The translations under genes and the position numbers were made by a program. The notes below the pieces were generated by a model, which searched no databases, was not told where the DNA came from, and was given only the letters and a program-made list of their open reading frames with translations. Shown here one piece after another: positions 1 through 58,890 of a stretch of 64,000 bases of DNA. How positions within the stretch are numbered: the first letter of the stretch is position 1; each line of letters opens with the position of its first letter. The stretch is from Isoetes taiwanensis (Eukaryota; Streptophyta; Lycopodiopsida; Isoetales; Isoetaceae), in contig JAJEKV010000010.1 in NCBI GenBank assembly GCA_021234155.1, positions 7,600,871 through 7,664,870 on the forward strand. Direction: 5' to 3'.

Positions 1-416
1 ATCTTTTCTCCCGCCGCATATCTAGCCATGGTACCTTCTGACACTTTCGTTTTAATGATATCTCACTTCGAGTTGCCAGCATTAAATGACATTCCTTCTT
101 TTCACGCCCGTCAAACATAAATGTGCGTCCTTTCACCAGCTGTCACATCCGATCATTCTCTTACGTCTCATCGTCACCGTTCATTGCTTCTTCCTTTACC
201 GTTTGGGGACTTAGCCAAACTTTTGCCTCTCAATCGCCTACTTCGCATCTGTCGCCACCTGGCATCATCAACGGTTGCCGGTTCGCCCTCATCATGCCCC
301 TTCGCCTACACTTGCGCGCCCTAAAACCTTTTCGTCTATCTGCGCCTTCGTCTTCTGTTCTCCGCTCTCCGCCTTCTCAAGATCATCCTTCCGGTTCCTC
401 TCCGATGCTTTTCGCC

Positions 417-3400
417 ATGGCTGCGCCCAAATTTCCTACCCTTCAAGCTTCTGCTCCAAGGGATCCGGCTCTTTTCGAGTCTGTATCTTTCTTGACGCCC
501 ACTTTTCGTGAAGCCCTCATTGGCCCAAATCGTGAAGTCGCGGAGCGCCAGAAGCTTTATGAATTCTCGCAAATGGAACTCCCGGCCCCAAATCCAGAAC
601 AATTGAAGCAGTTCATTGCTCACATCGTCAACAGCCCGAATGGATACGCTACTGTGGTCGATGGCACCACCATTTTGCTTACCCCGCCCCTGATTTCTGA
701 GGTATTCCGTATTCCTTTGCAAACACCTTGTTTATCTTGGGTTGCCTTACAGGATATAGATGTCACTGAATTCGGCGCTCCTGCTTATCAAGCAAACATG
801 CATCGCCTGACCAATATTGCCAAGTCCCATGACACTTTTGTTAAGTTTTTGTGGCAAAAGTTACTTGGGTATTCTATCAAGAACACCCACATCAATAAGC
901 CGTTCTATAATCTGGTGATCACAGCAATCCACTCCAACCACCACGTGGATTGGCCCCAGCTGTTGTTCTACCGCCTTCTTCAAGAAGTAGACCGTATTCG
1001 GGCTACCCCCTCCTCTGTTACTGAAGTTTCAGTGGGTGGCCATCTTCAAGCCATCATCCGTCGTTACCTTCCTCCATCAGCTTCTGTTTCTCATGCTTCC
1101 ACTCAGCAGTCATTTCATTCCCTTCCTCAAAATCAACCAGTTGGCACTTCCTGCCCTTCTTCTTCTGGTCATGTCCAGCATAACACCACGCATGTCACTG
1201 TCTCCTCTTCCTCTACAAAAACGAGGCCCTCCAGTTCTCATCATGTCTCACAAACGTCACAAACACGGCAACAGCAGGCCCCTCCGCCTCCACATCCTCG
1301 CCAGCTTCTGTATCAATACCAGCAGGATGTTCAAGCTGCTGCTCTAAAGTTACAAGAATCCCAGGATGCTCTCATGAATGGGGTTCAAGCGTCCCTGGAG
1401 GCCTCAGACGCAGTTCACCGAGACCTTCACGCAGCTACCACGCAAGTTCACACTCTGGAGACCAGCTCCAAGCCAAGCACGAGGCTCTTTTACAGGCCCG
1501 TGAGGATCTAAAGGCTGCCGAAGATCAGCATAGTCTGCTTGCTGATCAGCAGGCTCAATTGCAAACCACCATTCAGGAATTGTTGGAGCAGGTCTTGCAA
1601 GGCCAGGGAGACTCTCTTGGTTGACAAGGATAAGGACATTGCCAAGCTGGACACGCTGTATACAGAGCTCTCTCGGCATTACAACACTCAAGCCCAAGAC
1701 CTTACAGCGCGTGACGCTCAAATTGCCTCTTTAGAAGCCAGCCTTTCCCACGCCCCGACCTCTAAGCTCACGCCTCCAAGATCGCCTTTACGGAGGCTCG
1801 AAAACAGAAAATTATTGATGACGCCGAGATTGCCACGCTTCGACTCAATGTTCCCCGGCAATCTTCTTCACATGCCACGCCTTCTCGAAACGGGTCCGCG
1901 TGATCGATCACTATACATTAGAAAAGGAGAACCGGATCCGTGACCTTGAACAACAGCTACACCAAGCTATTCAGTCTGCTGATGAGGCCCAGACCAAACA
2001 GGAAGGCTACGTTACCATCGCCCTCAACATATCTGTTGACTTCCCTATTCCTTCCAGTTATCTCGATTATGTGGTTGCCCGCCGCCACCTCTTTCTTCTG
2101 AAGTGGTATGCGGCTGATGGTCCAGTTGATGTCCACATTGCAGCGAGGATTTTCTGCGGATCGGCGGACCTCTCCATTGAAGACAAAGGTTTACTCATTG
2201 CCCTTTTAGTCTTTGACCTCATTCCTTTGTGAAGATCCAATATGATCACCTTCCGCGTTGTTCGGTAGATGGCGTGCATTTTCCATGACTTCTATCCGGC
2301 GATACGGGATAAATTTGAGATGGGCCACATCAGAACTTTCAGGGTGACTCAACAGTTCAATGGTTGCTTTTGGATAGCAACCCCTACCTATCTGATCATG
2401 ATAAGACACACGCTCTTCATCAAGAGTACATGCCTGAGCTTGCTCATCATTTACCTCTATGGCAAGCTGAGGCGCTGCGCAGTGAATCTGGAAGAATCTT
2501 GGACATCCCGAGGATCTTCCCTTTGCCCAAGTCTATATGCGACACTTGGCGGGTTACAATCAATCTGCGTGCTCTTCTGGATAGCAAGACAGTTCCCACG
2601 GGTTGGGATAGCCCTCCTGTATACTCTCAGCTCCCCGCTTCTGCTTGGGACCATTGGTGCAAAGCTCTTGATCCCGACCTTGTCCATGACTTGAGGGGAG
2701 CGGGCTCGGCGCCCACGCCCACGGGCATGGCCCCCTCTCCATATGCTTCCCTGGGTGTCCCTCCACGCCCTCGGTTCCTCACCTCTGATTGGCGTCTCCC
2801 CTTTTGGACCAAGGTCCCGAATGGCCACGGCCCCGATCGACTCAGCCTCGGATCTCGGCCGGATCTCCCGTGGGGATCCCGATTTGTCGACGCCTTCCGG
2901 TTGGGAGGATAATGCCACCTTGGACACTATCGAAACTTGGATCTATATTGCCAATGAGCGTGGTTGGCAACGACCCGCTGATGCTATTCATGGCCTCGAC
3001 ACCTTCTTGCGAAATCTTTGCCACCTCACCCGGACCCTTGATTACCGTCGGGCTGGTTTTACGTGCTTGCTCTCAAATGCATCCTGGTCAGCTCCTTAAA
3101 TCGGCAGCATCCCATCTTTTACTGCAACCTGAATGCAAGCGTCAGTGCCTTCGGTCTCCAGACCTGCCTACTCATGGAGTGCCAGTTTGTTTCTTCTGAA
3201 GCCCATGCTGCCCTTGAAGACGTGGTGCGCTCTCATTTCCTCCTTGATGCCGATCCTGCCCTTGGGTTCAACACTCCTCCTGCTCTTCAAAAACGTCAGG
3301 ATCTCATAGGCACTTACCATAATGGTGCCCGTCCTCATTCCCGTGAGGATCACTTTCAGACTCCTGGGTTCCCGCCCTCAGAAACACTTCCTCCTTTTCT

Positions 3401-3437
3401 TCAGACTGAGTGTCGTTTGGTGGGGGGGGAGTGTTAG
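417..3437 (+). pseudogene. Family G copy 1: decayed large ORF of a non-autonomous LTR element
   Basis: I do not recognise the product. The start at 417 is chosen because copy 3 (28041) begins with a matching start (MAAPKFPTLQASAP here, MAASPKLTTLQATAP there). Frame 1 is open to 1511; homology then continues in shifted frames (about 1539-1943, 1900-2232, 2364-2912, 3063-3437), so the reading frame is broken several times. The first third is globular with the segment LISEVFRIPLQ, which recalls plant mobile-element proteins. The middle is Gln/Ala-rich and predicted coiled coil. The last part carries SLNRQHPIFYCNLNASV and CLLMECQFV, both conserved in copy 2. No protease, RT, RNase H or integrase motif is visible. 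The ORF runs up to a G-rich polypurine tract next to an LTR, which places it as the internal gene of a non-autonomous retroelement. Gag-like function is inference. Confidence 0.6.
3419..3431 (+). other. Polypurine tract, family G copy 1
   Basis: The purine run GGTGGGGGGGGAG ends exactly where TGTTAG begins. The same arrangement occurs at 13427-13438 in copy 2. This is the expected plus-strand priming site upstream of a 3' LTR. Confidence 0.65.
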
Positions 3438-3766
3438 TCCTCAGGACTATTCATGCATACGACGGACCAGGTCAAGTCCAAGGATCCACCGATCGAGCCG
3501 CGAAGTCGGTCGTCAAAGGCCCAGCCGAGAGACCAAGCGGCGTTGACCACGCATCCAAAGCTGCGTCGCGCAATAAGAGGCGCCCGCTCATACAAGTGGC
3601 GGCCCGTCACCGCACCGGCGTCGGCGTCAGCGGGATTTCGGAGGCTTTTCAAGAGGCACTGGGGCAAAGATCCTGCAAATCGGGCCTCCTTCCGTGAGTC
3701 ACGACCAAATCGATCCCGAGTGTCTATATTGCGCCAAAGGCCATTGTACTATATATATGAGTAGAG
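3432..3766 (+). mobile_element. Family G copy 1, truncated 3' LTR
   Basis: It begins TGTTAGTCC after the polypurine tract and shares GACTATTC and the promoter-like TTGTACTATATATA (about 3743-3756) with the LTR of copy 2 (13439-13868). The remaining third of the LTR (downstream of the TATA region) is missing: sequence from about 3767 on belongs to the H3-like ORF on the opposite strand. The exact junction is uncertain by some 15 bp. Confidence 0.55.
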
Positions 3767-4927
3767 CTAGCATATGAGTTTTAGATGAGTTAACGGGGCA
3801 CGGGAGATCAAGAACCCGAAGCTACGCTGAAAATGCCTGATCTCCCTCAGGGCTTTCCTCTCACTCTCCTTCCTGCCGGTTCTCTTTTTGCCTAGTGGTC
3901 TAGGAGGCTTGGGCTTCTTGGGTGGCGGCTTTAGGGTCTGGCTCTTCGTCGGATGTCCACCTTCGATGACCCGTACTCTGTTCTACTGATAATATGTGTT
4001 GTACGCCTCCCACTTTGCCATGAAGGCATTGTGCTCCCTTAGTTTCTTCTGATAGACCTTGACGGGGTCTATCACATACGCCTCTCGAGCCGGCCGCGGT
4101 GCTTTGTTTCGGTCCCACGTCGGGTATGGTGGGGGCTTCTGCACCTGCTCGGGCTGCTCCGGGTCGGGTATTGCCTGCTCATCAGCTGGGGGTTTAGAAC
4201 AGCTTCCCCCTTCGGTGTTGGGGATGAAGTCTTCATCTTCAGAGTCGTCGGAGGAGGGCGGGGGCTGGTCAGCTGATGGTTCGGTGATGACGACCTTGGG
4301 GTTGGGGGTCTTTATTCGTTTGACCTTCATGAGTTTTCTTTTGCCCACCACCACGAACTTCCCCTTCTTTTTCTTCAGCTCGTCGGCCGCTTTCGCCTCC
4401 TCGTCTTCCCTCTTTCTCTTCTTTTCTGCCTTCTTCTCCCGACGGCGTTCTTTGGCTTCATACTTCTTGATCCACACCGCGAGGTCTTGTTCCTCGCTTG
4501 GCTCGAGTGTTGGCTCTCTCTGCTCTTCTTGCTCCTCGGCCTCCTTCTCTCGAATCCAAGCTTCGAGTTGCTCCTCGATGGTTGGCTCAGGAGTCGGCTG
4601 CCTCTGCTCTTCCTTCTCTTCGGCCGCTCGATCTTGTTCCTGCTTCTTCTTCCTTTCCTCCTCCTCTACTTCTTCAAGAATCTTCTGCATGACGTCTGGT
4701 TCCTCATTGTCGAGGACCTCTGTCCCCGCGTTGGAGTGTACCTCGTCTTGATCGACCTGCTGGGATCCTTCGCTTTGGTGTTCATCTGAAGCCGCTCCCT
4801 CGCTCGATGAAGGCTGGCCATGTCTAAGAAGGCGCTCCTGAAGCATTCTCTGTATCAGGCTGGGATCATGGGCGCTGGGCGATTCGCCCGGTCGGGGAAC
4901 TCGAGCGGTCTGCTTGGTCCGGGCCAT
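3767..4927 (-). pseudogene. Retrotransposon ORF with histone H3 tail and H3/CENH3-like C-terminus (copy A)
   Basis: The frame is 386 codons with one internal TAG at 3983-3985 (codon 315). Residues 1-10 are MARTKQTARV: the H3 tail through R8 after Met removal, with Val at the K9 position. Residues 20-180 are Glu/Lys/Gln-rich predicted coiled coil with a tandem repeat (106-130 and 134-158, each EEQR-x-PT-x-EP followed by W-I). Residues 159-206 are Lys/Arg-rich, a likely nuclear signal; 225-233 is SSDDSEDED; 265-269 is PPPYP; 280-313 is a helix also found in copy B. Past the stop, ALREIRHFQRSFGFLISRAP (residues 359 on) matches H3 alpha-N/alpha-1; HF for KY and AP after the LLI-type core are CENH3-like. 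The frame ends where family G sequence begins. On this strand it follows an LTR, a primer site and a TATA box. Tail and fold matches are seen; a chromatin role is inferred. Confidence 0.85.
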
Positions 4928-5026: not shown

Positions 5027-5036
5027 CTATTTATAG
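5027..5036 (-). promoter_or_regulatory. TATA box of the H3-like ORF, copy A
   Basis: On the minus strand CTATAAATAGACCTAGG lies about 100 bases before the ATG at 4927. Copy B has CTATAAATGGACCCTTAGGG at the same distance from its ATG. A TATA box well inside the element and apart from the LTR suggests the ORF has its own promoter. Confidence 0.6.
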
Positions 5037-5135
5037 ATGGGCAATTTTTAGGTCAAATTTCAAACTCCCTGTTTGGGTCATCTAAAACACTTATTATCTT
5101 ACTACATGGCTAAATTTAAGCATTTCCAACCTCAT

Positions 5136-5203
5136 GGTCTCATACATTGCGCCCAGACCAATAATGAAAGTTTCATTTTTGCTCCTGGCGCGACGTGTGA
5201 GAC
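5136..5203 (-). repeat. Leader hairpin repeat 1, copy A element
   Basis: The arms GTCTCATACATTGCGCC-type and GGCGCGACGTGTGAGAC are inverted copies separated by about 35 bases. A second, better-paired copy lies about 215 bp further towards the LTR (5351-5417). It sits in the untranslated leader between primer site and ORF. Confidence 0.6.
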
Positions 5204-5350
5204 ATGGTAGATTTTGATGCTAAATTTTATACTTTCTAAGCATGTTTTTGATAATGTAACATACTAATCTAGCTAGTTTTTAGCTTAAAATTCGAATTAC
5301 CATGTTGCTTTTCTAAAATTCATCACTTTTCAAGGTGTTTTGGTCTCAAT

Positions 5351-5417
5351 GTCTCACACGTTGCGCCCAGCCCGAAAATGAACTTTTCATTATTGGTCCT
5401 GGCGCGACGTGTGAGAC
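5351..5417 (-). repeat. Leader hairpin repeat 2, copy A element
   Basis: GTCTCACACGTTGCGCC pairs with GGCGCGACGTGTGAGAC with one mismatch, enclosing an AT-rich loop of about 33 bases. It is a near-duplicate of 5136-5203. A dimerisation, packaging or protein-binding role is possible but not shown. Confidence 0.65.
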
Positions 5418-5607: not shown

Positions 5608-5620
5608 TGCTCTGATACCA
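5608..5620 (-). other. Primer binding site (initiator tRNA-Met type)
   Basis: Minus-strand TGGTATCAGAGCA, one base inside the LTR end. TGGTATCAGAGC complements the 3' end of plant initiator tRNA-Met and is the standard primer site of many plant LTR retrotransposons. Confidence 0.85.
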
Positions 5621-5621
5621 C

Positions 5622-7524
5622 TGTGACGTCCCCTACTCATATATGATGCCCGCACCGTATACAAACAGGAGTTCATCCCCCATACCAGCTCCATACTGAT
5701 ACATGGCCCTCCACATATCACTGTGACCGTACTGGGTCTCCAGTGGGAAGAATGAAGGGGTCATTTTACCCCGTCTCCCTCAGGGCCTACCTAGCTGCGG
5801 AAGCGTAAACATACATGTCAGTAACATAATCATCATATACCCACCTCAAAGGGTAGCACATCAACATCTGCATAGACAAAGATCAACACAGCACAAGGGG
5901 AGTTCCTACCCAAGGCTCAGACTCCAGGGGATGACTGACAAGCTTGGGTCTCCAGAGTTCATTGCAGACAGAATCATGACAATGGATTTGGCTGGCATAA
6001 GAACATGGCATTGGGTTGTCCACTCCATCTGCCCCTCCTGTGCACACTTTGCAGAGTAGGTTGAAAAGTGTTGGGACCTGACTGTAGCCCGCCGGATGCA
6101 TAGCCAAAGGGGCTACTCCTGGGTTGCATCTCCCCAGTTCCGATGGGGCAGGTAGGGATCACTCCCACCAGAGGTGTCCATGCTGACCAGTGATGACTTT
6201 AAGGTGTGAAACTTCGTAAAGTTGCTATATTTTACCATTTTTTAAAATCTGAATTCGATGGTTTACTAGGATGCGTACGCTAAAGAACTTCATAAAATCG
6301 CCAAAATTTGATAATATTGCATCCCAATTATAGTAAATTCGCCAAATTAATGGACATTTTACAGTAAAAACCTCAATTTTATGGTAAAACATCCAATTCT
6401 ACTAAATTCGTTTCTATAAAATTGTTGGAAAAATAGGAAACAATCGCCACCATTTCTATAGTTTAGAAGCAGCTAGAGGATGATAAAGTCATCACTGATG
6501 CTGACTCAAGGTGACTAGAGGGCCACTGCCCTTATTCGACTGAACCCACTGGAAAGTGAACACCACTCCACGGGTGTCGAGCCCATGCCATACCCGCGCT
6601 CAGTGGCAAGCCATTAGACCTAGTCACAATGATCCCCGGTAGGCCTTACACACCAGAGGGATCATTCAAGAGTCAGAACACGAACCTCCTTCTTAGCCAG
6701 TCTGGCCCCTTCACCTACAACCAGGTGTGGTTCCTGTACACAGGCCGAATCGACAGTGTGCTAGAGAGGCTACTCTAGGAGCATCAACTACTAAGTTTTA
6801 GGGTCTCTACCCCCCTTCCCAATACAATGAGTTCACAGAGATACATCATCCATATACATCAGAGAAGAACTAAAGAACTAGATCTAATCTATATCATAGA
6901 GTTAGGTTCTTTAGTTAGAGTTTGGTAACTGGGAATCTAAATGGCTGCTATGGGCAATTTAATAGGCTAAACCTACTGATACAAAGACTTGAGGATGGTT
7001 TATGCTATTAAATTGACTAAATACCTGATCCTTGGCTCGCTCCTCCTGCTCTGAACTCGACCATCCTGCTGGGCTGCTAGAAGATGGAGCTAAAAGGGGA
7101 AACTAATGAGTCAAATCGCTCAGACAGAGTCTGGGAGGCGGTTTTGACTCCTGGAGCAAGCAAAACAGAGCTCTAAAACCCTACGGACGAAAATGGCAAG
7201 TTAGGGTTTCTCCTACCTAAATAGACAAGGGTTTAGGGCTAGGGTTTCCAATTATCCCTTTTAAGCATGTGGGATAATTGGGTGTGGCCCACTTGCCTTT
7301 AATGACTAGGTGGCATAAAGTGTCCACATGGGAAAATGTGCACCTAGATAAATGTGCACATTGGAAAATGTGCACATTAATAAATGCACATACCTTGCAA
7401 GTTGCCCCCTAGGGGCTGCCCGCTTGGCTACCTGTCGGCGTACACGTCAGTCGAGGTGGCGTGTACGCGTGTCAAGGTAGTACAGTATACGTCCTGGGAC
7501 CGTATACTGTGCTGGAACGTCACA
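5622..7524 (-). mobile_element. 5' LTR of the H3-like-ORF retrotransposon (1.9 kb)
   Basis: On the minus strand it starts TGTGACGTTCC at 7524 and ends GACGTCACA at 5622, so the termini are TG...CA with an extended inverted TGTGACGT/ACGTCACA. A primer site follows at 5620. A related copy (1,999 bp, same termini and the same following primer-site region) occurs at 49928-51926. Short apparent ORFs inside it (about 5883-6168 minus) match the other copy only as shared LTR sequence, not as a gene. Confidence 0.8.
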
Positions 7525-9849: not shown

Positions 9850-10687
9850 TCGCAATTAACCATTTCTAATGCCTCACCCTTGTAACTTTGGATCTACTAA
9901 TAGTACCGAACACCATAGTCTTAGACAGATAAATTCACATTCATCTTCTTCGACTCATAGAATGTGGCTAGATTATCCAGATGCATTTGTAACCTCAGGT
10001 GTATTGGAAATTAGTCCAACATCATCAGCATATCATAGAAGCTGAATCACTAAATCACCCAAAAGAGTACTTGCAACTCCTCTGTTTCTCAGCCACTCCT
10101 CGAGCTTGTCAATATACAATTTGAAAAGAGTGGGTGACAAAGGGCAACCCTGACGAACTCCAATAGTGTTCTTCACTGCAGCATCTAGACCCATGCATAG
10201 TTTTGCGATCACTTCCTCGTACAATCTTGAAACTGCAGCTCTATTGGGAAGTGGCACTCCAATGTGCTCCAATTTGTCACCTAGGCCCATCAAAAGCTTT
10301 TAAAAAATCTATAAAGGTAAGGTATAACAATTTCTTAGGACCTTTGGCCTTCCCAACGAACACTCTCAACATCAAAGCATGGTCCAATGTATTAAATTGC
10401 TTTCTAAAGCCAGCTTGACAGGTCGCTCTTTTGTCATTATCCTTAGCCCATGTATTAAGCTTCTGCTCCAGTGTGCTGCCCAATGATTTGGAAAAGACAC
10501 TCCCAATCATGATGGCTCGGAAGTTTCTGAGATCCGATTTAAAAGGTCTAGTGAACTGCCACAATCCTAGTCTTTTCAAGCTCTCCAAAGTCATTGTCTT
10601 CCTTGGCGCTTCAACCTTTTCGTCGACAAACATGGCTGTCTCTTTATGATTCAGCACTCTGCACACCAACACGCCAATGGAGATCAA
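9850..10687 (-). pseudogene. LINE reverse transcriptase fragment
   Basis: Reading leftwards, 10687-10277 encodes KKLLYLTFIDFLKAFD (RT motif A). 10293-10033 encodes GVRQGCPLSPTLFKLYIDKLEEWL, the conserved RT block of non-LTR elements; just below 10033 YADDVGLIS (motif C) appears in another frame. Frameshifts separate the pieces. No endonuclease domain or poly-A tail was found. It adjoins family G copy 2 at about 10690-10730, so it is probably an old insertion cut by that element. Confidence 0.75.
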
Positions 10688-10729
10688 TGCTTTTGCCTCC
10701 GTAAATTTTTCTACAACCCCACTTTCGGC

Positions 10730-13438
10730 ACCCTTACAAGGTCAGAATCGGGCTGCCATGGTTAGGGTGGGCTTTGATTATTTTGTTGATCAAGAACTTT
10801 CGGTCCCAAATCCTGGACAACTCAGGTAGTTTGTCGCCAACCTGGTTAGTACTCATGACAGCTTTCAAACTCTTGATGACACACCCCATCCCTCTTACAG
10901 CGTTGGTCTGACTGGTTTTTCACCTTGTCAGCCCGCCAAGATTATTAGGGTGGTCCGATTTGCAAGACTTTGATGTCATCCCCTACATTGATCACTCGTA
11001 TTCTGCCATTTCCACCAAGCTCACAACTTTTGCAAAGAGCCATGAGTCCTTTGTAAAATTCCTGTGGTGGAAATTCCTTGGACATGTCGTCAAGAATACT
11101 CACATCAACAAGTATTTCTTCAACACAGCTATAGCTGCCATTCATTCAGCCAAGTCATTGACTGGCCCCAACTTTTGATGCATCGCATGTTTGAAGAACT
11201 CGATCGTCTCAGGAAAGCTCCAGGCTCTGGCTCTGATTCTACTATGGGTGCACATTTTCAGCACTCATAAATCAAGCTCTTCCTGTTCCCAGCACTATGT
11301 TCACTTATGGCAGCACCTCTATGTCACGGGTCTCCAGTAGAGTTCCCTCCAAAATCCCTGCCATACGTGACCTTCTAGATGAGCACTCTTAGCAACAAAA
11401 TGTCAACATTCAAGAAGAAGTTCGCAGTCCATCCCCACGCAGTAAGTCTCCAATTCCTATCTTCTCTTCTCACCATTCAGAAAAGAATACTCTATCAGAC
11501 CCCCATCAACAGTCACAGGTTTCCATTTCCTAGGACATTCTGCACCCACCTCCACTGCCTTCCTGACAAGCTCTCTATGAATATGAGCATCAGGTTGCTA
11601 CATGCATCCTGCAATTATAGAAGTCTCAAGATAAGCTGATGAATGGCATCAAGGATCATCTGGATTCCTCTGATGCTCTCAAAAAGGATCTCCAGGACCT
11701 TTTCCCTCAAAAGCATCAAATTGACGAGCACTTGCAAGAAAAACGTTTCCATATGCGAAGAGTTACAATAATCTCAAAATGCTTTGGCTCAGTTAGAGGC
11801 CATACATGCTCTCTTACAGATCCAGATTCAAACACTCCAAGACCAGCTTACAGCAAAAGATCAGCTCTTACAGGACACCTTCGCACTCTAGCACAGTTTT
11901 CAAGAGGAATTTCAAGTATAGAAAGGTGTCACCATGCACAAACAAATACATATCACAGAACTGGAAGGTTGGTCACGGCTGCTCAACTCCAGGCCAAGTC
12001 CTTGGAAACCCAGCTGCATAATGCTGTCAAACAAAAGATCATCGATGATATAGAGCTGTCAAACAAAAGATCATCGATGATATAGAGCTCTCTGATCTCC
12101 AACTCCAATTATCCTCTATGGGTGTCACTTCTTCTCATAGCAATCAAGCTTAAGGAACTCGAGCGCCTGGTGGACGACAGGACGAATCAAATCCAGGATC
12201 TCAAACATCAGCTCCAACAAGGCGGAACAATCCATAGAGGATGCCCACATCAATATGGAACGATATTCTGTTCTTACTGAGCACACGTGCACGGATTATC
12301 CTCTCCTCTCGGATACCTTAGGCACAATGACATCTCTTCCTTATCCAATGGCTCAGTGCTTCAGGCTCAATTGAAGGTGCTCTTACGGTACAGGATTTTG
12401 TCCATCTTTGACCTGAACTTACCATTGAAGAACAGTGCACCTTGTACCTTTCTGATCCCACGCCAGTGGCCACGCTCCAGAACGAATATATGCCTGAGCT
12501 TCACTCCCATCTCACCCCTTGGGCATAGGAGGCTCTTAAATGTGCGCAAGACCACGTACAGCGCGAGTAGGGCACAGGCAACACACATTTATTTCTCCAG
12601 CATGTTGGCACACTCAATACTCTCCAGACATATCTGGAAAATAAGGTTGTTCTCTGGGACTGGGAACCCTCTCCTCTTGAGACCCTGATGCCACCATAAG
12701 ATTGGGACATGCTATGCAAATAGTTGGATCCTGACTTGGTCATGAAATTCCGCGCTCAGTCCCAGAATGAGCAGATGCATCCTCCTCCATAACCCAGTCC
12801 TTATGCCCCACTTGGCGCCCCGCCACGGCGTGAATACCTCACCGCAGACTGGCGCTCCTCTTTCTGGACGAGGACATTGGAAGTCCATGCTGAGTGGACT
12901 CCCAGGCACATCATTGTTGATCTTACATGGGATCCACGCTTTGTCCGATGACATGCATGGACGGATACTGACAGTCTGGACACCACCAACAATTGGATTT
13001 ACATCCCAAATGAGAAGATCTAGAAAACGCTCGCAAATACTAGTTGCAGGACTTTCTCAGTTGATGACCTGGACTGCTACTTCTCAAGACCCATCTGTTC
13101 ATCATCAAGCTAGTTTTTGTGCTGCCCTTTGTTGTATTCTCACGAGCTCCTTGAACAGGAAGCGAGCAATTTTTCATTGCAACCCCAATGCCAGTGTCTG
13201 TGCCTTTGGCCTTGAGACTCTTCTCATGATGGAATGCCAGTTTGTGCCAGCTGCTGCTCACCACGTTCTTACAGACCATGCCTGATGCTCTCCATCAATG
13301 CCAAAACCTGGTTGCTAGGTACCACAATCAAGTTCGGCCCCACAGTCGCCAAGATGATGCAGGGGGACTTGACAACTTCCCTCCCCCAGAAACTTTTCCT
13401 GCTTTTCTCTCCTCTGAGTGTTCTTTGGTGGGGGGGAG
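10730..13438 (+). pseudogene. Family G copy 2: decayed large ORF
   Basis: It follows the order of copy 1: HDSFVKFLW-type segment here as HESFVKFLWWKFLG (about 11040-11085), then NTHIN (about 11095); the MNGIKDHLDSSDALKKDL coiled coil (11639 on; copy 1 has MNGVQASLEASDAVHRDL); LDPDLV and PSPYAPLGAPP with the DWRSSFW segment (12720-12870); and SLNRKRAIFHCNPNASVCAF and MMECQFV (13150-13250). There are many stops and frameshifts. No pol motifs are visible. It ends at GGTGGGGGGGAG, directly before the LTR at 13439. Confidence 0.6.
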
Positions 13439-13868
13439 TGTTAGTCCCATGCCCCAAAGCAGAGACTATTCCTAAAGCAGAAAGCCAAAAGGCAAAGGGC
13501 AGGCATCCACATCAGGAGCTAAGGTCACGCCAACCAAGAAGAAGTGACCATGAGATTCCACGGCCTAAATGCTCCACGGCCTGCCAACTTTCACTACCAC
13601 TCATGGCAATAATGGTTCCACGAGTCATGGCAGGAATCACGAGATTAGGTGACGGAGGATTAGAGCCTTTGCTATTTTGGGGCAGAGATCATTGTACTAT
13701 ATATACCTGAGAATTAGACTTAAATCTTTAAACAAGTTCAAGTGTTTTTTTTTGTCTCATTTCCTCATGGAGCCTTTCATGTACTCTCTTTGAATCAAAG
13801 ATAGTTATTCTTATCTGTTGTTGTCTTGTTTTCTTCTTCTTCTTTTGTATTACAAAACCCGCGTGACA
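13439..13868 (+). mobile_element. Family G copy 2, 3' LTR (430 bp)
   Basis: It starts TGTTAGTCCC directly after the polypurine tract and ends GCGTGACA, giving TGT...ACA termini. It contains TTGTACTATATATACCTG (about 13691-13708), matching the TATA region of the copy 1 LTR, followed by a T/C-rich stretch suited to the R/U5 part. The right boundary is inferred from the terminal dinucleotide only, since LINE sequence starts soon after. Confidence 0.6.
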
Positions 13869-18304: not shown

Positions 18305-18601
18305 TCCATCAAAAGCCTTCACATGATTGGTCGTGTGGTTGCGATTTTAAGTTCTAGCATAACAGTTCTAAATGTTGGCCAATTATTTGGAGAGCGACAA
18401 GTGGAAACAGAAGAATACATGATACACTTTCTATACAGCTCGAGAAACTTCGCTGCTTCGGAATCGACGAAAATGTCTGTACATGCATTCTCTCGAAATA
18501 TTCTATGTAACACGGCCTATATCCCATCTGTGACTCAGTGCCCTCCAACAAAGGGTTCTTACTCTTGATCCCCATCGATATCGAGTTTCTCGTGCGGAGA
18601 C

Positions 18602-21507
<2,906 letters not shown>

Positions 21508-40085: not shown

Positions 40086-40577
40086 ATGTTGGAAAGGAAA
40101 AGCTTAAAATGGACAGTGGTAATGCTAGTTTTAGCAATGAGATGCAGCAATGCAAGGATGGTGCATCTGGAATTCTATCTGCAAGGCGGCGGACCGAACA
40201 GCACAAGCAGTCTAGTGGCAGGTTCAATTTCAAACATTGGGCAATTTGGAGCAATGTATGTGTATGACAACATCATCACCCAAGAGCCATCAGATTCATC
40301 AAGTGTGGTAGGAAGAGCACAGGGAATTGCTGTGGTAGCTGATGCGAAATCGCGCAGCGCCTTCTACTCCTTTACTGTCATGTATGAGAGTGGCCAGTTG
40401 CATGGCAGACTTGCTTTGCTGGGTATGGATTATAGAGCAGGCAGTAGCCAGCTGGTTGTTGCTGGTGGTACTGGGGATTTTAAATTGGCCTCTGGCTATG
40501 CTACTTTCACTTACTTAACCTTTGGTGCCCTTTTCACTGCTCGTCTCTCTGTCACTATTTATCAGCCAGAAGGCTGA
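40086..40577 (+). CDS. Dirigent-family protein
   Basis: 163 aa, single exon. Dirigent proteins are secreted beta-barrel proteins that set the stereochemistry of phenoxy-radical coupling (lignans, related phenolics) in the apoplast. Residues 1 to about 23 form a hydrophobic signal peptide (KWTVVMLVLAMRC). Diagnostic strands follow: FGAMYVYDNIITQEPSDSSS with VVGRAQGIAVVAD (54-86), YSFTVMYESGQLHGRLAL (94-111), and the hallmark VVAGGTGDFKLASGYATF (124-141), then the final strand ARLSVTIY (152-159). The family is usually 180-190 aa, so this one is slightly short at the N-terminal linker and the C-terminus. The catalytic outcome cannot be read from sequence. No neighbouring pathway gene is visible. 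Confidence 0.9.
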   Translation: MLERKSLKWTVVMLVLAMRCSNARMVHLEFYLQGGGPNSTSSLVAGSISNIGQFGAMYVYDNIITQEPSDSSSVVGRAQGIAVVADAKSRSAFYSFTVMYESGQLHGRLALLGMDYRAGSSQLVVAGGTGDFKLASGYATFTYLTFGALFTARLSVTIYQPEG

Positions 40578-49280: not shown

Positions 49281-49439
49281 ATATGTGGATCCAGCCTATC
49301 CACATCTCAGTGGGAGTGGTGGAAGTTATTGCTAAAGGAACCTGCTATGAAAGGGAAAAGAAGAAAAATAGAAGGTGAAAGATTAAAGGGCAAGTTCAGA
49401 ATGGAGTAAAAAAAGGAGATGACATAAATAGGTATTATA

Positions 49440-49927: not shown

Positions 49928-51926
49928 TGTGACGTTCCAGAATAATATACGGTATGAATACCTATATTATACTACCGCGTCACTCGTACATGTCGCTTTG
50001 ACGACATGTACTTGGAAACCGTAAAGGATTGCACCCTAGGGGGCAACTTCTTATGTTTCACATGCCTTTAAATATGTGCATATAACCCCCTTTTGCCACA
50101 TGCCAAAACCCCACATGAGCTTTTAGCTCTAACCCTAAAAGGGTCATGTAAAAGGAACCAAAGAGAAACCCTAAACCTTTCTCCTTTTTGCATTCCAGCT
50201 TCTAAGAGCCATTCCAGCCAATTGCTAGTGCCATTCCGCATTGCCAGATGTCGCCAAGCTAGCTTTGCATAACAGATCTTCCGGATTCAGCCGCCTTCGA
50301 CTCGAACAGGAGCATGGACACTTTTTGAGGAGCTAGAGTAGGCCAGGATCAGGTAAATAGCAATTCTGTTGTGCAATGCCAACTTCCAATCCGGCAATGA
50401 GCTGGGTTAGTATATTAGATTACCTTTAGAGGCCTTATAGATTTTGAGATCACAAGCCCTAACAAAGGAACCTAGCCATGTATGTTTAAGTAGATAGATT
50501 AGATGTTATTCTATATTTCAGTTCTATGAATGATGACATTCTATTCTATGTGCACTCCTGTGTATTGGGAAGGGGGGTAGAGACCCTGAAAGCCTTAGTA
50601 GTTGATGTACCTAGATAGCCTCATTAATCCCCAACTATTTCAGCCTGTGCATAAGAGCCCACCTGGATGTGGGTGGCGGGGCTAGGCTGGCATATAAGGA
50701 GGACATGTCCCATTACAGATTGATCCCTCTGGTGTGATAAAGCCTACCTGGGATCTTATGGACTAGGCCTGATGGTTTGACACTGAGTGTGGGCAAGGAA
50801 TGGGCTCGACACCTCTTGGGTGATGCGTCGCATTCAATGGGGTTCAAGTCGTGGACGAGCAATGGCTCTCTAGCCGCATGTAATAGGCATGCGTGCCTCT
50901 AGAGGGAGTGATCTCCTCCGGCCTCATCGGGATTGGGGAGATGCAACCCAGGAGAGCCCCCTTGGCTATGCACCCGGCAGGCTACGGTCAAGTCCCAAGA
51001 CTTATCAGCCTATTCTGCAAAGTATGCATAAGAGGGGCAGATGGAGAGGACTACCCAATGGCCATGTTCCTATGGTAGCCCAATCTATTTGCCATGAATT
51101 CCATCTGCATTGACTTCTAAAGACATAAGCCATCAATCAGACTTATCAGCCGGCAGGCTTCCGTCTGCATTGACTTCTAAAGACACAAAAATAATAAACA
51201 TCTATAGGTATAATTGAAGATTACTAAGCTTACAAGTTAGGGTTTAAACAACAAAATAGGGCTATGCATTAGGGTTTGTAGTGCAAATGGATGGCGATAT
51301 AGGCGATCATTTAATAGGCAGAAGCTCCGAATCAAGAATGCTGCAGTAGCAGCCAGATTGACGGCCTTTGTGGCCGGAGTTTATGTCTATACAATGAAGG
51401 CAGTTGGTGGCACTGATTAATTGCAAGCAGCCATTGAAGTTTTCGAGAAGGAACAAAAGCAGCAGGTAGAAACATCCAACTAGCCTCAGCTCCAGGTAGG
51501 CGCTTCTAAAGCTGCCTAAATTTTGCATGTTTTGCTATTCTATTTTACTACCATGATACCCCAATTGGAGAACCTTTGTTTTCATCTGTAACTATTTGGG
51601 TCCCCATGAGTCTGAGCCTTGGGTTGGATTTACTTTATGTTGATGTTATTGATGTTGTTACAGATGTATGTTATGGTGAGCCGCCCTTCGAGGTGGAACT
51701 ATGTGTATTTGATGTTATGTGCTCATGTTTATTTATGTTTCCACAGCTAGGATGATCCCGAGGGAGACGGGATGAATGACACGCCCATTCGTTTCCATCG
51801 ACCCCTTGTCAGATAGCAAGAGTTCGGTGCTAGGTGGACGGCCTCTGTCAGCTTGTGCGTTGATAGAGGGATGAACTTCGGCTTCTTATACGATAAGAGC
51901 ATCATATACGAGCAGAGGACGTCATA
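49928..51926 (+). mobile_element. Second LTR of the H3-ORF-associated family (2.0 kb)
   Basis: TGTGACGTTCC at 49928 to GACGTCATA at 51926, matching the inverted LTR at 5622-7524 along its length: both contain CCTAGGGGGCAACTT near the start, the segment around GGGGAGATGCAACCCAGGAG in the middle and the GACGTCA end. The left end lies inside copia RT sequence, giving a nested insertion. Confidence 0.8.
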
Positions 51927-51927
51927 G

Positions 51928-51940
51928 TGGTATCAAAGCA
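51928..51940 (+). other. Primer binding site, second LTR
   Basis: TGGTATCAAAGCA, one G-to-A change from the site beside copy A. The following 170 bases match the copy A leader (GTAGTACTAAC, AACCTCGAAAAATGG) to about 52110, so this is a 5' LTR with the start of an internal region, not a solo LTR. Confidence 0.75.
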
Positions 51941-52110: not shown

Positions 52111-55100
52111 ACTAGCAAAAAGGCACGCCGAGGCCATAGAAAATAAAGGCACAGGAAAATAAGGGCAAAATAATATACATTGAATTAAATTGGATGCCAA
52201 AAGATAATTGAAATGTCATTTTACATCTTTTTCAACTGATTTCGAAGTGATAAAAATTGAAACTTTCTACTTCAATGATATGATTTCCTTATTTAGATAA
52301 CAAATACAAAAATAGGAATTTTTAGTTTCTTTCACACACCTTATTTAATCCTTTTCATATCATAATGCATGTTCCTTGAACTTGGTTGTGTGTAGCTCTA
52401 AATTCAAGGAGATTTTTTCGTGTGCTTGGTTGTATAGGCATTATGTTATAGCTCAAGATTCTTTTGTGCTCAAAACTATTCATGGTTATAGTATAAAGGA
52501 TACTTACAAATTTAGTATGTTTAAACAGTACACTTACGAACAGTCTTTTTCAACATGGAAGACTATAAAGAGGCCTGGATTGGAAATGTAAGTTCAATCC
52601 TTACATAAATATGCCAACGAAGAGTTGGACACATAAATGACGAGTTTCAACCCGGCATTGAATTGATTTGTGTTGGTACAGTGGGTTTTAGATGACTTCT
52701 TAGATCTTGTCTTATTCTTTCTAGTTTTTTGCATGGGGCATGGGTTCTAATGGAGACATCAACCAAAAACCCAAGAGAGTGGAAACCGTCCTATTTGAAA
52801 CTGGAGACTGTCCATAGGTTTGCCACTGCTAGACTTACATTGTAGTAAAAGCACTACAAATTTAAAAATAGGCAGTTGGCTGAGGAAAATAGATAACATA
52901 TTACGAGAAGATGACAACAAAAATTTAGAAGAGCAAGCCACCATTCAAGCATTTGGTTCTGTAGACATGGTTGTTGACTCACTATCTACTAATTGTTTTA
53001 GTGGCGGAACAATTCTATACACTTTCCTCGGTACTATGAGAAGGATTCAGTAAAATCATTAGCATTTCAACATAGTTGGACTAACATAATAGAAAGAAAA
53101 TGCACATAGGCAAAAATGTTAAATTTATTCAAGGCACTACGTTTTATTAGAGGTTTAAGTTGGTTTAGTTAATTAAGGTTGTCGGCCATAATTTTTTAAT
53201 ATATAACACAATAATGTTACTGAACTTTATGGACTTTGACAACTTGCATTGTGTGGTGCATCTATTTGCCACAAGAATTGCACATTTCTTTGACCCACCA
53301 TTTGTTCTAGAATTGTTATTCTATGTTTTTTGGTTATAGCACTATGAACCTCAGATTTCGTAGATTTAATCATACATTGCTTCTTCATGGAATAACACTA
53401 TGACCTTTGAAGTTGCATGTTATAAGCAAGTATGTTTTGGACGAATCAAATGAGAATTGAAGGATCTAGAAACAATAAGCATATGAATACGAGAAGAATA
53501 CAAGTGGATGAAGGTTCATATCTATCGCAGTTCTCGCATGGAAATACAGATTTTTGCAAATCAACGTGTAGACTTTGTAGTCCTTGTCAGTATCTAGGCA
53601 TCCATGAATGAAAAGCTTTTAAGTAGAATAGATGTGTTGAGTTTCATTTGATCAATTCATCATGCATGACTATGATTATATGACTTGATGCATGCTATGC
53701 GTATGACATTTTACTCTTGGACTCCGGTGATTGATACAGCTGACTTGTCATGTGCTGACATAAGCCATTATAGGACACAATTATATGGGTTATATACACT
53801 TCTTATTACAGCAAAATAATATCAAAAACATGATAGGTTCTGACAATTGTTTTTGGCTTACATGATTAATGGGCCTCTTTTCTATTTGATACATTAGTTG
53901 CTGCTTTACTAAGGCCAGAGAACGCATATTGGTAAATTCTATGCACTGGTAAAATGCAGTCTACAATTATCCAAGTAGACTATCCTCTGCAAAGGGCAGC
54001 ATTACAAATGGAGCTGATTAGATAAGAGTATGATACTTTGCATGTTTCTTGGTACCACTGCAAATCCAATTGCTTTCCTACTTGTAGCAACATGTATTTC
54101 AACTCTAAGGCATGCATTCATGACTTCTTGCTATTCTTACTACACATGTATTAGGCATGTATACATGTCGCATCTCGTTTGGGCATGTTGTTTCCTAGGA
54201 GGAGAGAAAAATTTGGTGGCAAGGTGGAAGTTATCATGGATCAAGAGAAGACGCAGATCAGCGGGACGTGAAAATCTTTTAGCATAGTGAAAAACATCTC
54301 AAAGAATCATGTTGGCCACTTTAAAAGGTCACGGCTAATGCTAGAAACTTTACGCATTACATTTAGCAGCAGAATTATGCAGCTGGAGGAAATTTTAGAG
54401 AAGATCCATCCACTTGGTTTCGTCTTCATGCATATGACTTGCTTATAAAAAAATACGAGCTGCACATTATCCTCAAGCAAGCTATAGTCTCATCTTCCTA
54501 GTATAGGTTATCTTCTTATTGCTTACAGCCTGCCATGCATACAAATCCTAATCTAGCAGACCAGTCTTGATTAGCAAGAGTTTGAATGCTATTCTACCAG
54601 TGCCAAAAATTGACATATCATTACAGGCATATATGTTTTGGAAACATGCATGTGGAATGATGAAAAGAAACCCCTTAAAATACTGTCATATTATTTTACG
54701 TTACCTGCTGCAGGTGACAATGTTTTGTTCTTCTATAGAAGCAATACTATTTCAAGGAATGTGCCTCTCTAAGCTGAATAGAATCTTATATGCAATCATT
54801 TTCCCTGAGATAAAACTATGCTGAAGAAATTACAAAGTCAACGAAGTACAGGCGTTTTCAAAGGTTTATCATTTTGGAAGTCTAGAACCATTGTTGCATA
54901 CCTACATACAAAGTGACAAATCCATTGACTTGCCAAGACTAAAACATGTCAGCAAAATGCCATATATAAAGAGAAATGCTTATGCATTTATAACAATGAA
55001 GTTACTTACACAAGCATCAGATCCTCACATTTGCGGTAGGACCCAGTGAAAGCATAGTCAAGTTCGAATTATCTGAACAAAATACCAAATAGGACATGTG

Positions 55101-57190
55101 CCAAAAACATGCAGATGAAAGTCAAGAGGACAATAGGAATATATGCAAGAGTGCAGAAGGGCAGCAGGAGCAAAAGTTTGGAACACAATAAACTGCGCTT
55201 GCTCCATCAGCCGTACTTGTGAGTGAATTGCGAAGGTGAATTCAAAAAAAATTACAAAGGTGTTGTAATTAGAAAGTAGGTCCAAGAAACAAATCTAAAG
55301 GTGTACTATGCTTGTGATACAACAAACATGCATCGGCTTCATCCTTAAGAAATACTCCTGATAAAAGATGGAGAAAATAAGCTCCATTCATGCTAAATTG
55401 ATTAAAGGATGTAGATAATGTCGTGGCCCGAGGACGTTACTTAAAAATAATTTTGAGGGTCAATGAAAATGCTGAGGGCGTGCACAAAAATTTTTTTTAG
55501 TAACGTCCGAGGGCCAGGATGTTATCGCCCTTAATGCCCTAGTTCGAGGGTTTGCTCCAGGGCCGCATCCAGATCTTAGAAGAAGGAAGCAGAGGTGCCG
55601 GATCTAGATTTTAGAAGAGGGAAGGCTGGATATTAGAAGCAGGAACATAAAGATCTTAGAAGCAGAAGGCCGGATCTTAGAACAGAAGGGCCGGATCTTG
55701 GAACAGAAGGGCTGGAAGCAAGATTAAGCCATCATTGTGCCACGGCCCTGCAGATCTTAATAACAGGAGAAGACAGAGCAGCTTTTGCTCTGTTTTGCGA
55801 TGCAAACATCCTATGCTCTGTTTCTAGAAACTTCGGATTTATAGCAAACTCTGAATCAGCTCGGGCCTGCCCAAGAATCGTTGGAGTTCCCATCAGCTAT
55901 GAGAGATAAACGTTGTTCTTGATATTATCCTAAGATGTTATGAGGATCTCATGCTTAACACTCTAGGATGTTATGAGAAACATCATAAAATGTCTGCCGG
56001 TGAAGCTGTTACTAGCAGATAACATCACTCTAATCAACGGCTGAGATTGGATCTCAGCCTGTAAACCTGAGAACTAGGGCGTTAAGGAGTCAAAATGTCC
56101 AATATCAAATGCGTGTGTTCTTGCATCAAAGAACAGGCTAAGCAAAATGGAGTAAGACTAATGCAATTTATACCTGATTAAGATGCATTTTAAACTACCA
56201 TTGTTGGACATTTGTTTCAGAAGGCAAGTGAAAGCTCCATTCCTTTAGAAGAATCTAGCGAGTTGAGCACTTATAAGAGTGTAATAAATTTCTTGTTTTA
56301 TTTGTAGCAGAGGTATTACATTGGCCTCCTTTATGTATTCAAAGGCCTGCAACAAAATCATTATCAAGTGCCATCCATGAAGCCTTGAACTTTGAAGGAA
56401 AAGAGCAAAGCAGTTTCAGTTACCTCAAGGTAATAATAAAAGGATAGAATTAATAGGGACTGGTCTTTCCACCAAATTCATAGATTACCTTTGTTTGAAA
56501 GCTTCCATAATGCGGCCAAGAATGTTGTAACATGGTTTTGGAGACAATCAATATCAAAAGATTAGGTCTTCAGTCACTGTTTTTCCAATTACAACATGAA
56601 AATCTTACCGTAAAGATATCATTTAGACCTACATTTACCATAATGAGGTCGATGCATTCCAAAACTAGAAATCTGAAGAGGTATCCCTGTGATTGACCGA
56701 GAAAAAGAGCTCTCTAAACAAGGATTGGATCGAGGAAGTCACCTGCAGAGCAAGGTATCTACATCCAAAATATAGTCCAAGAAAATGAGGATAGAAAATG
56801 CAGAAAACCATCAGAATATGACCGATGGGGCTACCTTTTTGGATCTCAACAAATTTGACCTTTGATACCAAGCAAAAGGAAGTGCCAGAGGTAACAAGAA
56901 ACATAACTCAGAGCATGCCAAGGAGGGATATGGCTAAAAAAATTATAGAGTCTATGACAGCAGATGAGGAGAAGGCATGATTGCGGCTATCTCACAATCC
57001 ATTTTCTAACTCATTTTCTAATTTTCATAACAGTGGATTTAAGAAAATGATAATCCAATAGTTTCAAACAATGCCACGTCAAAATTGGTTGAGCTGGAGA
57101 TGATACATGGATAGCCTAGAATTGCAAGAAAAGCTGTAAGCTTGGTTGGGCTGGCGTGCTAAAAAAAAAAAGAAATCTTAAAAAAAATTG
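52111..57190. other. Unassigned sequence between LTR/primer site and H3-like copy B
   Basis: No coding region recognised. 55425-55515 is a foldback (GGCCCGAGGACGTTACT against AGTAACGTCCGAGGGCC), and TTAATGCCCTAGTTC at 55531 is matched inverted by GAACTAGGGCGTTAA at about 56068, so 55425-56085 may be one foldback element; within it 55560-55715 repeats CCGGATCTTAGAA-type units. Since 49928-52110 and 57211-58890 lie on one strand in the right order, this 5 kb may be later insertions splitting one element. Confidence 0.35.
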
Positions 57191-57210
57191 AAAATTTTGG
57201 CCATCATAGA

Positions 57211-57277
57211 GCGACCCCACACAGAGTGCACCTGGACCCTTAGCTAAAATTTAGCTCGAGGCTCTCGTGCACTGTGT
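57211..57277 (+). repeat. Leader hairpin repeat 1, copy B element
   Basis: GCGACCCC...ACACAGAGTGCA pairs with TGCACTGTGT at the far side, enclosing AGCTAAAATTTAGCT. It recurs at 57423-57490. Its sequence differs from the copy A hairpins but size, pairing and spacing (212 bp) correspond. Confidence 0.6.
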
Positions 57278-57422
57278 AAATGCTTGACCATGACTCACCC
57301 AAAAATATACATAATTAGAGTAATCTGATAGCATAAACAGCTTAAAATCCGATTTTAAGCTAGAAAACCATGTCATACCCCTAAGAAAGTGTCTAGAAAA
57401 CATAAAATAAAGTAAAAAAGAA

Positions 57423-57490
57423 GCGACCCCTCATAGAGTGCGTCTGGGCCCTTAGCTAAAAATTAGCTCGAGGCTCTCGCGCACTGTGTG
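57423..57490 (+). repeat. Leader hairpin repeat 2, copy B element
   Basis: Near-duplicate of 57211-57277 (shares TTAGCT, TAGCTCGAGGCTCTCG and GCACTGTGT). It ends 230 bp before the ATG of the H3-like ORF. Confidence 0.6.
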
Positions 57491-57719: not shown

Positions 57720-58890
57720 ATGGCCCGCACCAAACAAACTGCTAGGGTCATTATGGAAGATGGATCAACCAACGTCCAAGTCCTTGTCGCCGAACAGAAG
57801 GCGAGGGAGGCCCAAGAACAAGCACAAACACAAGAATCCCAAAAACCAAACCCACCCCAACAAAACCTGGAGCAATAGGAATAGGAGCAGGAAAAAGAAG
57901 ATCAAGGGTAGGAACCGGAGGACCAGAACCAATAAGATCAGCAGCAGAATCCCGACCAACAAGAGAATCCTGACACCTAGTAGAATGAGAAACAAGATGA
58001 CGAGGAGCAAGACCCCATAACTACAAAGAAGGAGGCTCGTTGCCAAATAAGGATTATCAAGAGAAAGAGAGAAGCAAAGAAAAGAAGATTAGCAGAGAAG
58101 GAGGAACTTCAAAGGCAAAGGGAAGAGAAGGGCAAGGATCCACTTCCTGCGAAAAAGCCTGCGAGGAAGATGAAGAAGACAGACACCCAACAAAGGGGTG
58201 AAGTTCACGGAGAGGGAGTTCGATAGACCTGCATCCTCCTCTTCAGATACGGACTCAGACAATGATGCTTGGAGGATACCCCACCACATAGAAGGAACAT
58301 GACCCTCCAACCGGAAGATCAAGAAGTAGCAACACCACCTCCCTACCCGGCCTGGCCTAAACTAAATGCAGACCCCAAAAAGGCTAACAAGCCGGCACGG
58401 GAGTCCTATGTACTCAAGCACGAGCGAGAGTACAAGAAGAAGATGGCGAAGTATAAAGAGTATATGAAGATGTACGAAGCTTATGCCAAGTACTATGAAG
58501 AGCACAAGGTTCAGTACGTCAAAGAAGGAAGGCCCACAAAGGAAAACACCTTGAAGCCACCCGTAGAAAGACCGGTACCACCAAAGAAGCCCATGAAGAG
58601 GAGCAAGGAATCATACTTTGCGAAAGCTGCTTGGGAGATTCGACACTTCTAGAGGAGCCACGGACTTCTAATACCAAGAGCCGCATTTGCAAGACTGACC
58701 AGCGAGATCTTGCAAGAATTTGACAGGAAGATGTATGGCTCTTCTCTTTGCAATTGGTGTATGTAATAACTACTAATTCGGCTTCTGAGTTATGCTTAAC
58801 TCTTTTTAAATTCTAGATTAACTCTAAGTTTACTTATCTTATTTCAGTGTACGGCCACAGTTTTTGGCCTACTTAAGAGGATCATGAACC
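57720..58890 (+). pseudogene. Retrotransposon ORF with histone H3 tail and H3/CENH3-like C-terminus (copy B)
   Basis: Starts MARTKQTARV, then a Gln/Glu-rich stretch with stops at 57876, 57882, 57909, 57933 (TAA), 57978 and 57981; all but one are TAG among CAG/CAA codons. A Lys-rich part follows (58045-58190). One frame then carries SSSSDTDSDND (about 58240) and, after a frameshift, 58269-58652 gives PPPYPAW, KPARESYV, YKKKMAKYKEYMKMYEAYAK and a Pro/Lys linker. AAWEIRHF, a TAG at 58650-58652 (CAG in copy A), then RSHGLLIPRAAFARLTSEI matches H3 alpha-N/alpha-1; HFQ and LLIPxAxF are CENH3-like. A possible 91-bp GT-AG intron (58757-58847) would lead to QFLAYLRG, in register with AYLVG of H3 alpha-2. 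Clearly a pseudogene of the copy A family. Confidence 0.85.

Follow-up and report, generated by a model that had tools for sequence, protein, structure and literature searches.

A histone H3 with a split tail is the first gene of a Ty3/Gypsy chromovirus in Isoetes taiwanensis

In the genome of Isoetes taiwanensis, an autonomous Ty3/Gypsy chromovirus has as its first gene an ORF, here called ORF1, that encodes a histone H3. It is composed of H3 residues 1-9 or so, an insertion of about 310 residues, and H3 from about G12 to the end. The window, that is the whole stretch of 64,000 nucleotides that was analysed (contig JAJEKV010000010.1, positions 7,600,871 to 7,664,870 of the forward strand), contains two decayed copies. 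Intact copies were found in the same genome. The features of the two window copies are as follows.

3770..4927, minus strand: ORF1 copy 1, 386 codons, one in-frame TAG (codon 315)
4898..4927, minus strand: H3 tail MARTKQTARV of copy 1, at the start of ORF1
3794..3853, minus strand: H3 alpha-N and start of alpha-1 of copy 1, truncated (ALREIRHFQRSFGFLISRAP), codons 359-378
3431..3787, plus strand: truncated LTR of an unrelated TGTTAG-type element, which cuts copy 1; right border approximate
57720..58766, plus strand: ORF1 copy 2, decayed, 43% identical to copy 1
58626..58730, plus strand: H3 alpha-N/alpha-1 of copy 2 (PDB 3.6e-5; Pfam Histone 2.3e-4)

Re-reading of copy 1 confirmed what the first-pass annotation had given for the minus-strand ORF: the MARTKQTARV start, the coordinates, the frame, the 386 codons and the single TAG. 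The match of ALREIRHFQRSFGFLISRAP to H3 alpha-N/alpha-1 also holds, but the end of the frame does not belong to ORF1. Codons below about 3790 are foreign sequence of the neighbouring LTR, whose start GGGGGGGAGTGTTAGTCC is, together with CATTGTACTATATATA, common with the region around 13440-13700. Copy 1 is dead, interrupted by this LTR of another family at about 3787; at that 3' position, the intact genomic copies carry a complete histone fold. The repetition of both ends in a second copy on the plus strand, from 57720, was borne out. Copy 2 has the same ten N-terminal residues and, near its end, AAWEIRHF*RSHGLLIPRAAFARLTSEILQEFDRK. It is dead as well, full of stops, with nine in frame before the terminating one (7 TAG, 1 TAA, 1 TGA) and further homology pieces in other reading frames. 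An intron after alpha-1 in copy 2 was considered and rejected, since intact copies read through without one. The predicted structure of the copy 2 block, with helices at 5-39, 74-91 and 98-118 (mean pLDDT 72, pTM 0.39), is superseded by the intact genomic copies.

The resemblance of both window copies to H3 exceeds chance. Their first ten codons differ at 7 bases and at no residue, and random placement of 7 changes left all of them silent in 4 of 200,000 cases. An aligned block of 100 codons (98 used, two with stops dropped) shows identity at 119 of 196 sites for codon positions 1 and 2, compared with 32 of 98 for position 3 (p=7e-6). These silent-only tail changes and the divergence at third positions indicate that selection kept the protein since the two lineages parted. 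Together with the database matches, they also rule out a chance resemblance, as had been claimed. Search of the PDB gave a best E of 0.0079 for the C-terminal piece of copy 1 (124 matched sequences) and of 3.6e-5 for that of copy 2 (167 matched sequences). The best 60 rows for each piece are H3 or CENP-A-type chains, 7on1_e (copy 2) bearing a locus name only; the top scores of both pieces taken alone go to yeast CENP-A chains. With Pfam Histone, the pieces reached 14.2 bits (E 0.053, copy 1) and 21.8 bits (E 2.3e-4, copy 2), both below the cut-off of 26.4. The histone-profile search proposed for the window frame therefore finds a match, but a sub-threshold one: on the window by itself the case is suggestive, and the intact copies decide it.

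A profile made from the two copies retrieved 25 matches in a protein database, 23 of them with Pfam Histone; the remaining two, P0009 and P0025, contain the same REIRHFQRS stretch. When the window was scanned in six frames with a profile of H3, which was built from these matches and is hence not independent, the two ORF1 places scored 36.8 and 28.3 bits and the next place 1.1 bits. Full-length copy 1 had no match at E<=10 among 7427 candidates in the protein database. The dirigent gene of the window likewise had none at 1e-10 among 88 candidates, and the database thus seems poor in Isoetes taiwanensis proteins. A search of viral contigs yielded nothing useful.

Search of the genome (1.66 Gb) revealed at least 142 matches in 126 scored of 23,371 candidates. 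We read 25 distinct copies, window copy 1 included (28 stretches, three of them repeats). These were picked mainly for open frames, so that the share of intact copies is not that of a random sample. An uninterrupted ORF from M-x-R-T-K through the histone core is present in 14 of the 25, with lengths of 424-467 aa; a continuous short-tailed H3 would have about 135 residues. Two of these 14 show local changes: the end of L017 is altered and L024 is without four residues of helix 2. The H3 fold is complete in intact ORF1. Two intact ORFs matched Pfam Histone at 2.5e-27 and 3e-27 (96 and 95.7 bits versus the cut-off of 26.4), and one of the intact ORFs, searched against the PDB, matched H3.3 at 2.4e-26 over H3 residues 9-133, with H3 chains filling the best 60 rows. 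The MARTK start was found in 20 of 25 copies and the full MARTKQTAR in 16. Thus, intact relatives with a histone match at the C-terminus, strong in both ORFs that were tested, and relatives with the H3 tail start, on which the first-pass annotation had made its reading depend, exist in the same genome.

The long segment reported between tail and fold is real, and the intact copies refine it. H3 similarity resumes at H3 residues 9-20, where GG.PTK.QTL aligns with GGKAPRKQL, so that the extra ~310 residues form a single insertion after residue 9. The order within the insertion is acidic/coiled-coil, Lys-rich, acidic-Ser, Pro-rich and a conserved helical block.

Median pairwise dN/dS was 0.071 for the histone core (45 of 91 pairs usable), 0.131 for residues 1-20, the tail (62 of 91), 0.179 for the linker (61 of 91) and 0.256 for the insert (73 of 91). 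These values were obtained by NG86 with only pairs of dS between 0.02 and 1.5 kept, and the pairs share ancestry and are not independent. Tail and fold of ORF1 are under purifying selection. That ORF1 is a functionless piece of host H3 which was copied together with the element is accordingly highly improbable. Gene capture by transposable elements is known, and the available part of PMC6710886 describes hAT-borne extra H3 copies as RIP-inactivated in six of seven fungi. However, the low dN/dS, the silent-only tail changes and the constant place before gag in many copies already contradict such a neutral passenger.

Compared with plant H3, the ORF1 core has 44-52 identical of 86-90 residues. 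In the H3-H3' bundle, C110, R116, D123 and L126 are kept in 14/14 ORFs and H113 in 12/14. R49, R63, K64, R69, R72, R83, K115 and T118 are what we take to be DNA-contact positions. R69, R72, R83 and K115 are kept in all 14 ORFs and T118 in 13, and V117 is also kept in all 14. At position 49, 8 ORFs have R and 6 have K; position 64 is R or H, and position 63 is Pro, in all 14. F84 and S86 differ in 14/14, K56 is never Lys, and R129 and K122 are kept in only 3 and 4 of the 14 ORFs, respectively. With R63, F84, S86, K56, R129 and K122 altered, nucleosome entry may be weak or changed.

CENH3 is marked by a lengthened loop 1 and a divergent tail. ORF1 shares with CENH3 the 'RHFQ' and 'LLIP' motifs of alpha-N/alpha-1 (soybean CENH3 is among the matches). 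In contrast, its tail is that of canonical H3 and its loop 1 is of H3 length and aligns to H3 without gaps, which rules out the capture of a CENH3. Judged from its sequence, the fold is H3-type rather than CENH3-type, with DNA contacts that appear altered. Of the H3 or CENH3 origin originally suggested, the H3 half stands, on loop 1 length and most interface residues, and the CENH3 half falls.

The conserved tail could also serve as a decoy. The ARTKQTAR(K/V) end and the fold would then titrate away the readers, writers or chaperones of H3 that act in silencing the element, and the protein would stay outside nucleosomes. In both window copies the position of the first ATG gives the protein the N-terminus of a natural H3, and the tail is under selection. 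Among the 25 copies, residue 9 (counted without Met) is K in 16, V in 8 and R in 1, and window copy 2 also has V; Val instead of K9 could give a pseudo-substrate. We nevertheless find a decoy unlikely, because it needs no fold, whereas the whole fold is kept in ORF1 with its H3-H3' and L2 residues and is under stronger selection than the tail.

The sequences upstream of the two window copies are as follows.

5622..7524, minus strand: 5' LTR of element 1 (TGTGACGTTCCAG...GGGGACGTCACA), aligned with LTR2
5609..5620, minus strand: primer-binding site of element 1, TGGTATCAGAGC, a motif directly after LTR1
5345..5417, no strand: distal leader palindrome of element 1, 85% direct match to 5131-5203, fold z -5.4
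5131..5203, no strand: proximal leader palindrome of element 1, RNA fold z -5.5
5027..5036, minus strand: TATA-like CTATAAATAG of element 1, 109 bases before the ATG
49928..51926, plus strand: 5' LTR of element 2, from the LTR alignment
51928..51939, plus strand: primer-binding site of element 2, TGGTATCAAAGC, from its motif
52125..57164, no strand: insert of about 5 kb in the leader of element 2, borders approximate
57210..57277, no strand: distal leader palindrome of element 2, fold z -3.1
57422..57489, no strand: proximal leader palindrome of element 2, fold z -6.0

Each ORF1 copy is preceded by an LTR and a primer site on its own strand. The two LTRs, of which that of element 1 is complete, align at their start, body and end (68-82% in pieces), and both primer sites are presumably of the initiator tRNA-Met type. 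The leader of element 1, between primer site and ORF1, measures 681 bases. Removing the 5 kb insert from the leader of element 2 and joining the flanks restores the alignment of the two leaders: its three parts score 54, 45 and 110, where the highest shuffles score 47, 33 and 50, and neither of two control pairs reaches its own shuffle maximum. The ends of the insert, GCACGCC/GGCGTGC, resemble short terminal inverted repeats, and no Pfam domain was found in 52.1-56.6 kb on either strand at E<=1.

The palindromes are spaced by 212-214 bases in both leaders. RNA folding of the four gives z < -5 in three and -3.1 in one, versus 0.4 and 1.0 for two control stretches. Across the four palindromes, 89 of 100 cells retain their pairing, a level that 0 of 500 shuffles reach, and slid versions give at most 47%. 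Pairs changed on both sides number 6 of 25, equally reached by 65 of 500 shuffles, and further pair types are no more numerous than in the shuffles. Scans with Rfam and for tRNAs found nothing useful. The TATA-like box lies 109 (copy 1) and 113 (copy 2) bases upstream of the ATG. In copy 1, 17 ATGs are located upstream of the box and none between box and start; in copy 2, one ATG is at the box and one after it. We infer that ORF1 has its own promoter, separate from the LTR.

The TATA-like box and the palindromes would also suit a family of host genes that happen to have LTRs next to them. Such a neighbourhood is exceedingly improbable: it is already contradicted by the LTR, primer site and leader that precede both window copies, and by the gag-pol and second LTR that follow in dispersed genomic copies. 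Carriage of ORF1 by a retrotransposon, as first proposed, is therefore upheld on both sides, with gag-pol and chromodomain following in relatives.

After ORF1 of the C1058 copy, Pfam search revealed Retrotrans_gag, Ty3_capsid, aspartyl protease, RVT_1, RNase H, Integrase_H2C2, rve, SH3_Tf2-1 and Chromo, spread across more than one frame; in the C907 copy, Chromo reached 41.5 bits. Six elements were traced downstream, and the motif order H3-gag-RT-INT-chromodomain was found on the same strand in four. In one of these four, C1099, gag and pol are separated by foreign DNA. No gag, pol or chromodomain motif follows H3 in C1025, and in C1038, a tandem array, gag lies near H3 with PR, RT and INT only farther on. 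The array has a period of about 6.1 kb comprising LTR, leader, ORF1 start and gag (L041-L043); our guess is that it arose through LTR-LTR recombination. A gag motif is present in 12 of 20 genomic stretches, in 11 of them about 3.1-3.3 kb beyond the H3 motif. A repeated LTR, 92.8-97.5% identical, was found in four of the six elements, C147 and C1025 being the exceptions; the repeat of C1038 also extends over the leader and the ORF1 start. The gag-pol-chromodomain order behind ORF1 assigns it to a Ty3/Gypsy chromovirus, whose full set of domains, LTR pairs and primer site is found in the relatives rather than within the window. A non-autonomous element is ruled out by the gag-pol of the relatives.

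A readable ORF2, starting MATSDFRRWY... or MATADFGRWY..., lies between ORF1 and gag in four of the six elements. It has no significant match in the PDB (best 0.17), and the ORF2 region of C1058 no Pfam match at E<=0.01. One or two palindromes occur again 3' of ORF1 in all six elements (L030, L033, L036, L039, L042, L045), and a TATA-like match in five.

The position of ORF1 as first gene, upstream of gag, its long basic and acidic stretches and the leader hairpins nearby would agree with a structural protein that condenses DNA or RNA, the fold binding H4 or DNA in the pre-integration complex. We regard such a packaging role as improbable, since a normal gag with a Ty3 capsid match follows in the scanned element and packaging has no need for a free H3 tail.

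In the available part of PMC3350952, group I chromodomains have aromatics at HP1 positions 24, 45 and 48 and read H3K9me, and group II chromodomains lack Y24 and usually Y48. By eye, only W45 of these three is kept in the element, whose chromodomain looks like group II. With two of three cage aromatics apparently missing, a direct link from the chromodomain to the element's own H3K9me is not supported.

An opposite-strand retroelement as owner of ORF1 was also rejected: the plus-strand element at 1-3440 belongs to another family, and its relative at 10.6-13.7 kb gave no H3 signal in the window scan. The neighbouring features of the window are as follows.

1-3440 and 10600-13720, plus strand: another retroelement, present twice, whose LTR is of the TGTTAG type; the 1-3440 element has a 462-codon ORF with no Pfam match at E<=0.01
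18569-21504, plus strand: HSP70 gene with several exons, chloroplast type judged from its leader
40086-40577, plus strand: dirigent-like gene
48540-49931: Copia reverse-transcriptase fragment (minus strand) and inverted piece (plus strand); LTR2 starts at the end of the inverted piece
60833-60952: imperfect palindrome, 81%, MITE-like
63080-63398: inverted pair of 69 bases, 91%, MITE-like

Host H3 is present and distinct from the H3 of ORF1. Search of the genome with canonical H3 (150 scored of 9,022 candidates) identified 15 full-length places at 96-98%, which we regard as host genes, and another 135 at 71-86%, three of which were read: L047 (C1044), L048 (C1065) and L049 (C1061). Their ORFs start with MAITKSAPDP and have an uncharacterised N-terminal part and a complete C-terminal H3 fold but no H3 tail; in L047, 77 of 90 core residues are as in canonical H3. 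One copy of this second family matches Pfam Histone at 3.3e-41 and has a primer site upstream. The LTR of this copy resembles that of the ORF1 family, with 82% identity across 158 bases and 73% across 101. The 9 kb that follow it revealed no gag or pol domain; the sole match was a B3 domain barely above its cut-off (31.7 versus 30.1 bits), and no match to the RT of the ORF1 family was found. ORF2 of the ORF1 family looks weakly collinear with that of the second family (E 0.015). Separately, P0001-P0005, P0007, P0008, P0011-P0013, P0017 and P0019-P0022 form a many-member family of diverged H3-like proteins, with starts such as MARTKKTLTAKQR (P0019) and, in several, ends such as IHHIAGINLWWN.

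H3 genes on mobile elements have a precedent. The available parts of PMC3538342 and PMC6710886 describe multi-copy H3L genes borne by hAT DNA transposons of Pyrenophora tritici-repentis (Ptr) and relatives, and Ptr H3L proteins with insertions in the N-terminal tail. As with ORF1, a mobile element carries a multi-copy H3-like gene, and in Ptr the tail is likewise interrupted. In contrast, the fungal carrier is a DNA transposon and ours an LTR retrotransposon of a plant, ORF1 differs from the fungal genes in having one ~310-aa insertion, and RIP inactivates the extra H3 copies of the six other fungi, whereas the ORF1 fold is under purifying selection. No hAT domain is among the Pfam matches (E<=0.01) downstream in C1058, and LTRs and a primer site mark the ORF1 family instead.

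Plant chromoviruses of the Ty3/Gypsy type, as covered by the available part of PMC3350952, share gag, PR, RT, RH, INT and chromodomain with this element, which differs by its H3 ORF1 and, in four of six cases, ORF2 ahead of gag. Extra sense ORFs with a host-derived domain are more often located after pol (PMC7264820, available part). The orchid Gypsy 2-ODD/AlkB ORF (PMC9289625, available part) resembles ORF1 as an extra sense ORF with a host-derived domain kept through diversification; section 12 of that paper (121 angiosperm genomes; supplement chart excluded) has no histone among the domains it names. Retrotransposon DNA methyltransferases (PMC5890265, available part) are also host chromatin- or DNA-marking proteins inside a retroelement, but they are enzymes and ORF1 is a histone. 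In the accessible text of the reviews PMC7264820 and PMC13317346, a word search for histone gave no occurrence. Search of titles and abstract starts in a collection with few subscription papers found no LTR retrotransposon encoding a histone. This suggests that H3 cargo, already known in fungal hAT transposons, is new here in having an LTR retrotransposon as its carrier.

We propose that the ORF1 protein acts on chromatin as an H3 variant owned by the element, and put the chances of this reading, drawn from sequence comparison, at about even. A host H3 gene would have been captured and its tail opened by the insertion. Once Met is removed, the protein would expose a natural H3 N-terminus. The Lys-rich block could mediate nuclear entry, and the protein may then pair with H4 and serve as an H3 variant. 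It might be deposited on the element's own DNA, either unintegrated cDNA or integrated copies. The coil would hold the tail off the nucleosome, so that host silencing could misread it or the integrase be aided in finding chromatin. In its fullest form, the proposal would be a chromovirus that builds its own nucleosomes from an H3 variant with a spring-like tail and has a chromodomain integrase, marking its own DNA or sites for its relatives and separating its chromatin from host silencing marks; this whole is decidedly unlikely.

Few host genes are as constrained as those of the core histones, and plants silence their retrotransposons via H3K9 methylation. An H3 borne by an element makes it directly testable whether the element uses chromatin of its own for silencing escape or for site choice. 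The interest of ORF1 lies in its purifying selection, in a natural tail end carried on a 310-residue stalk and in the Val9 of some copies. ORF1 is a natural experiment on how far the H3 tail can be opened.
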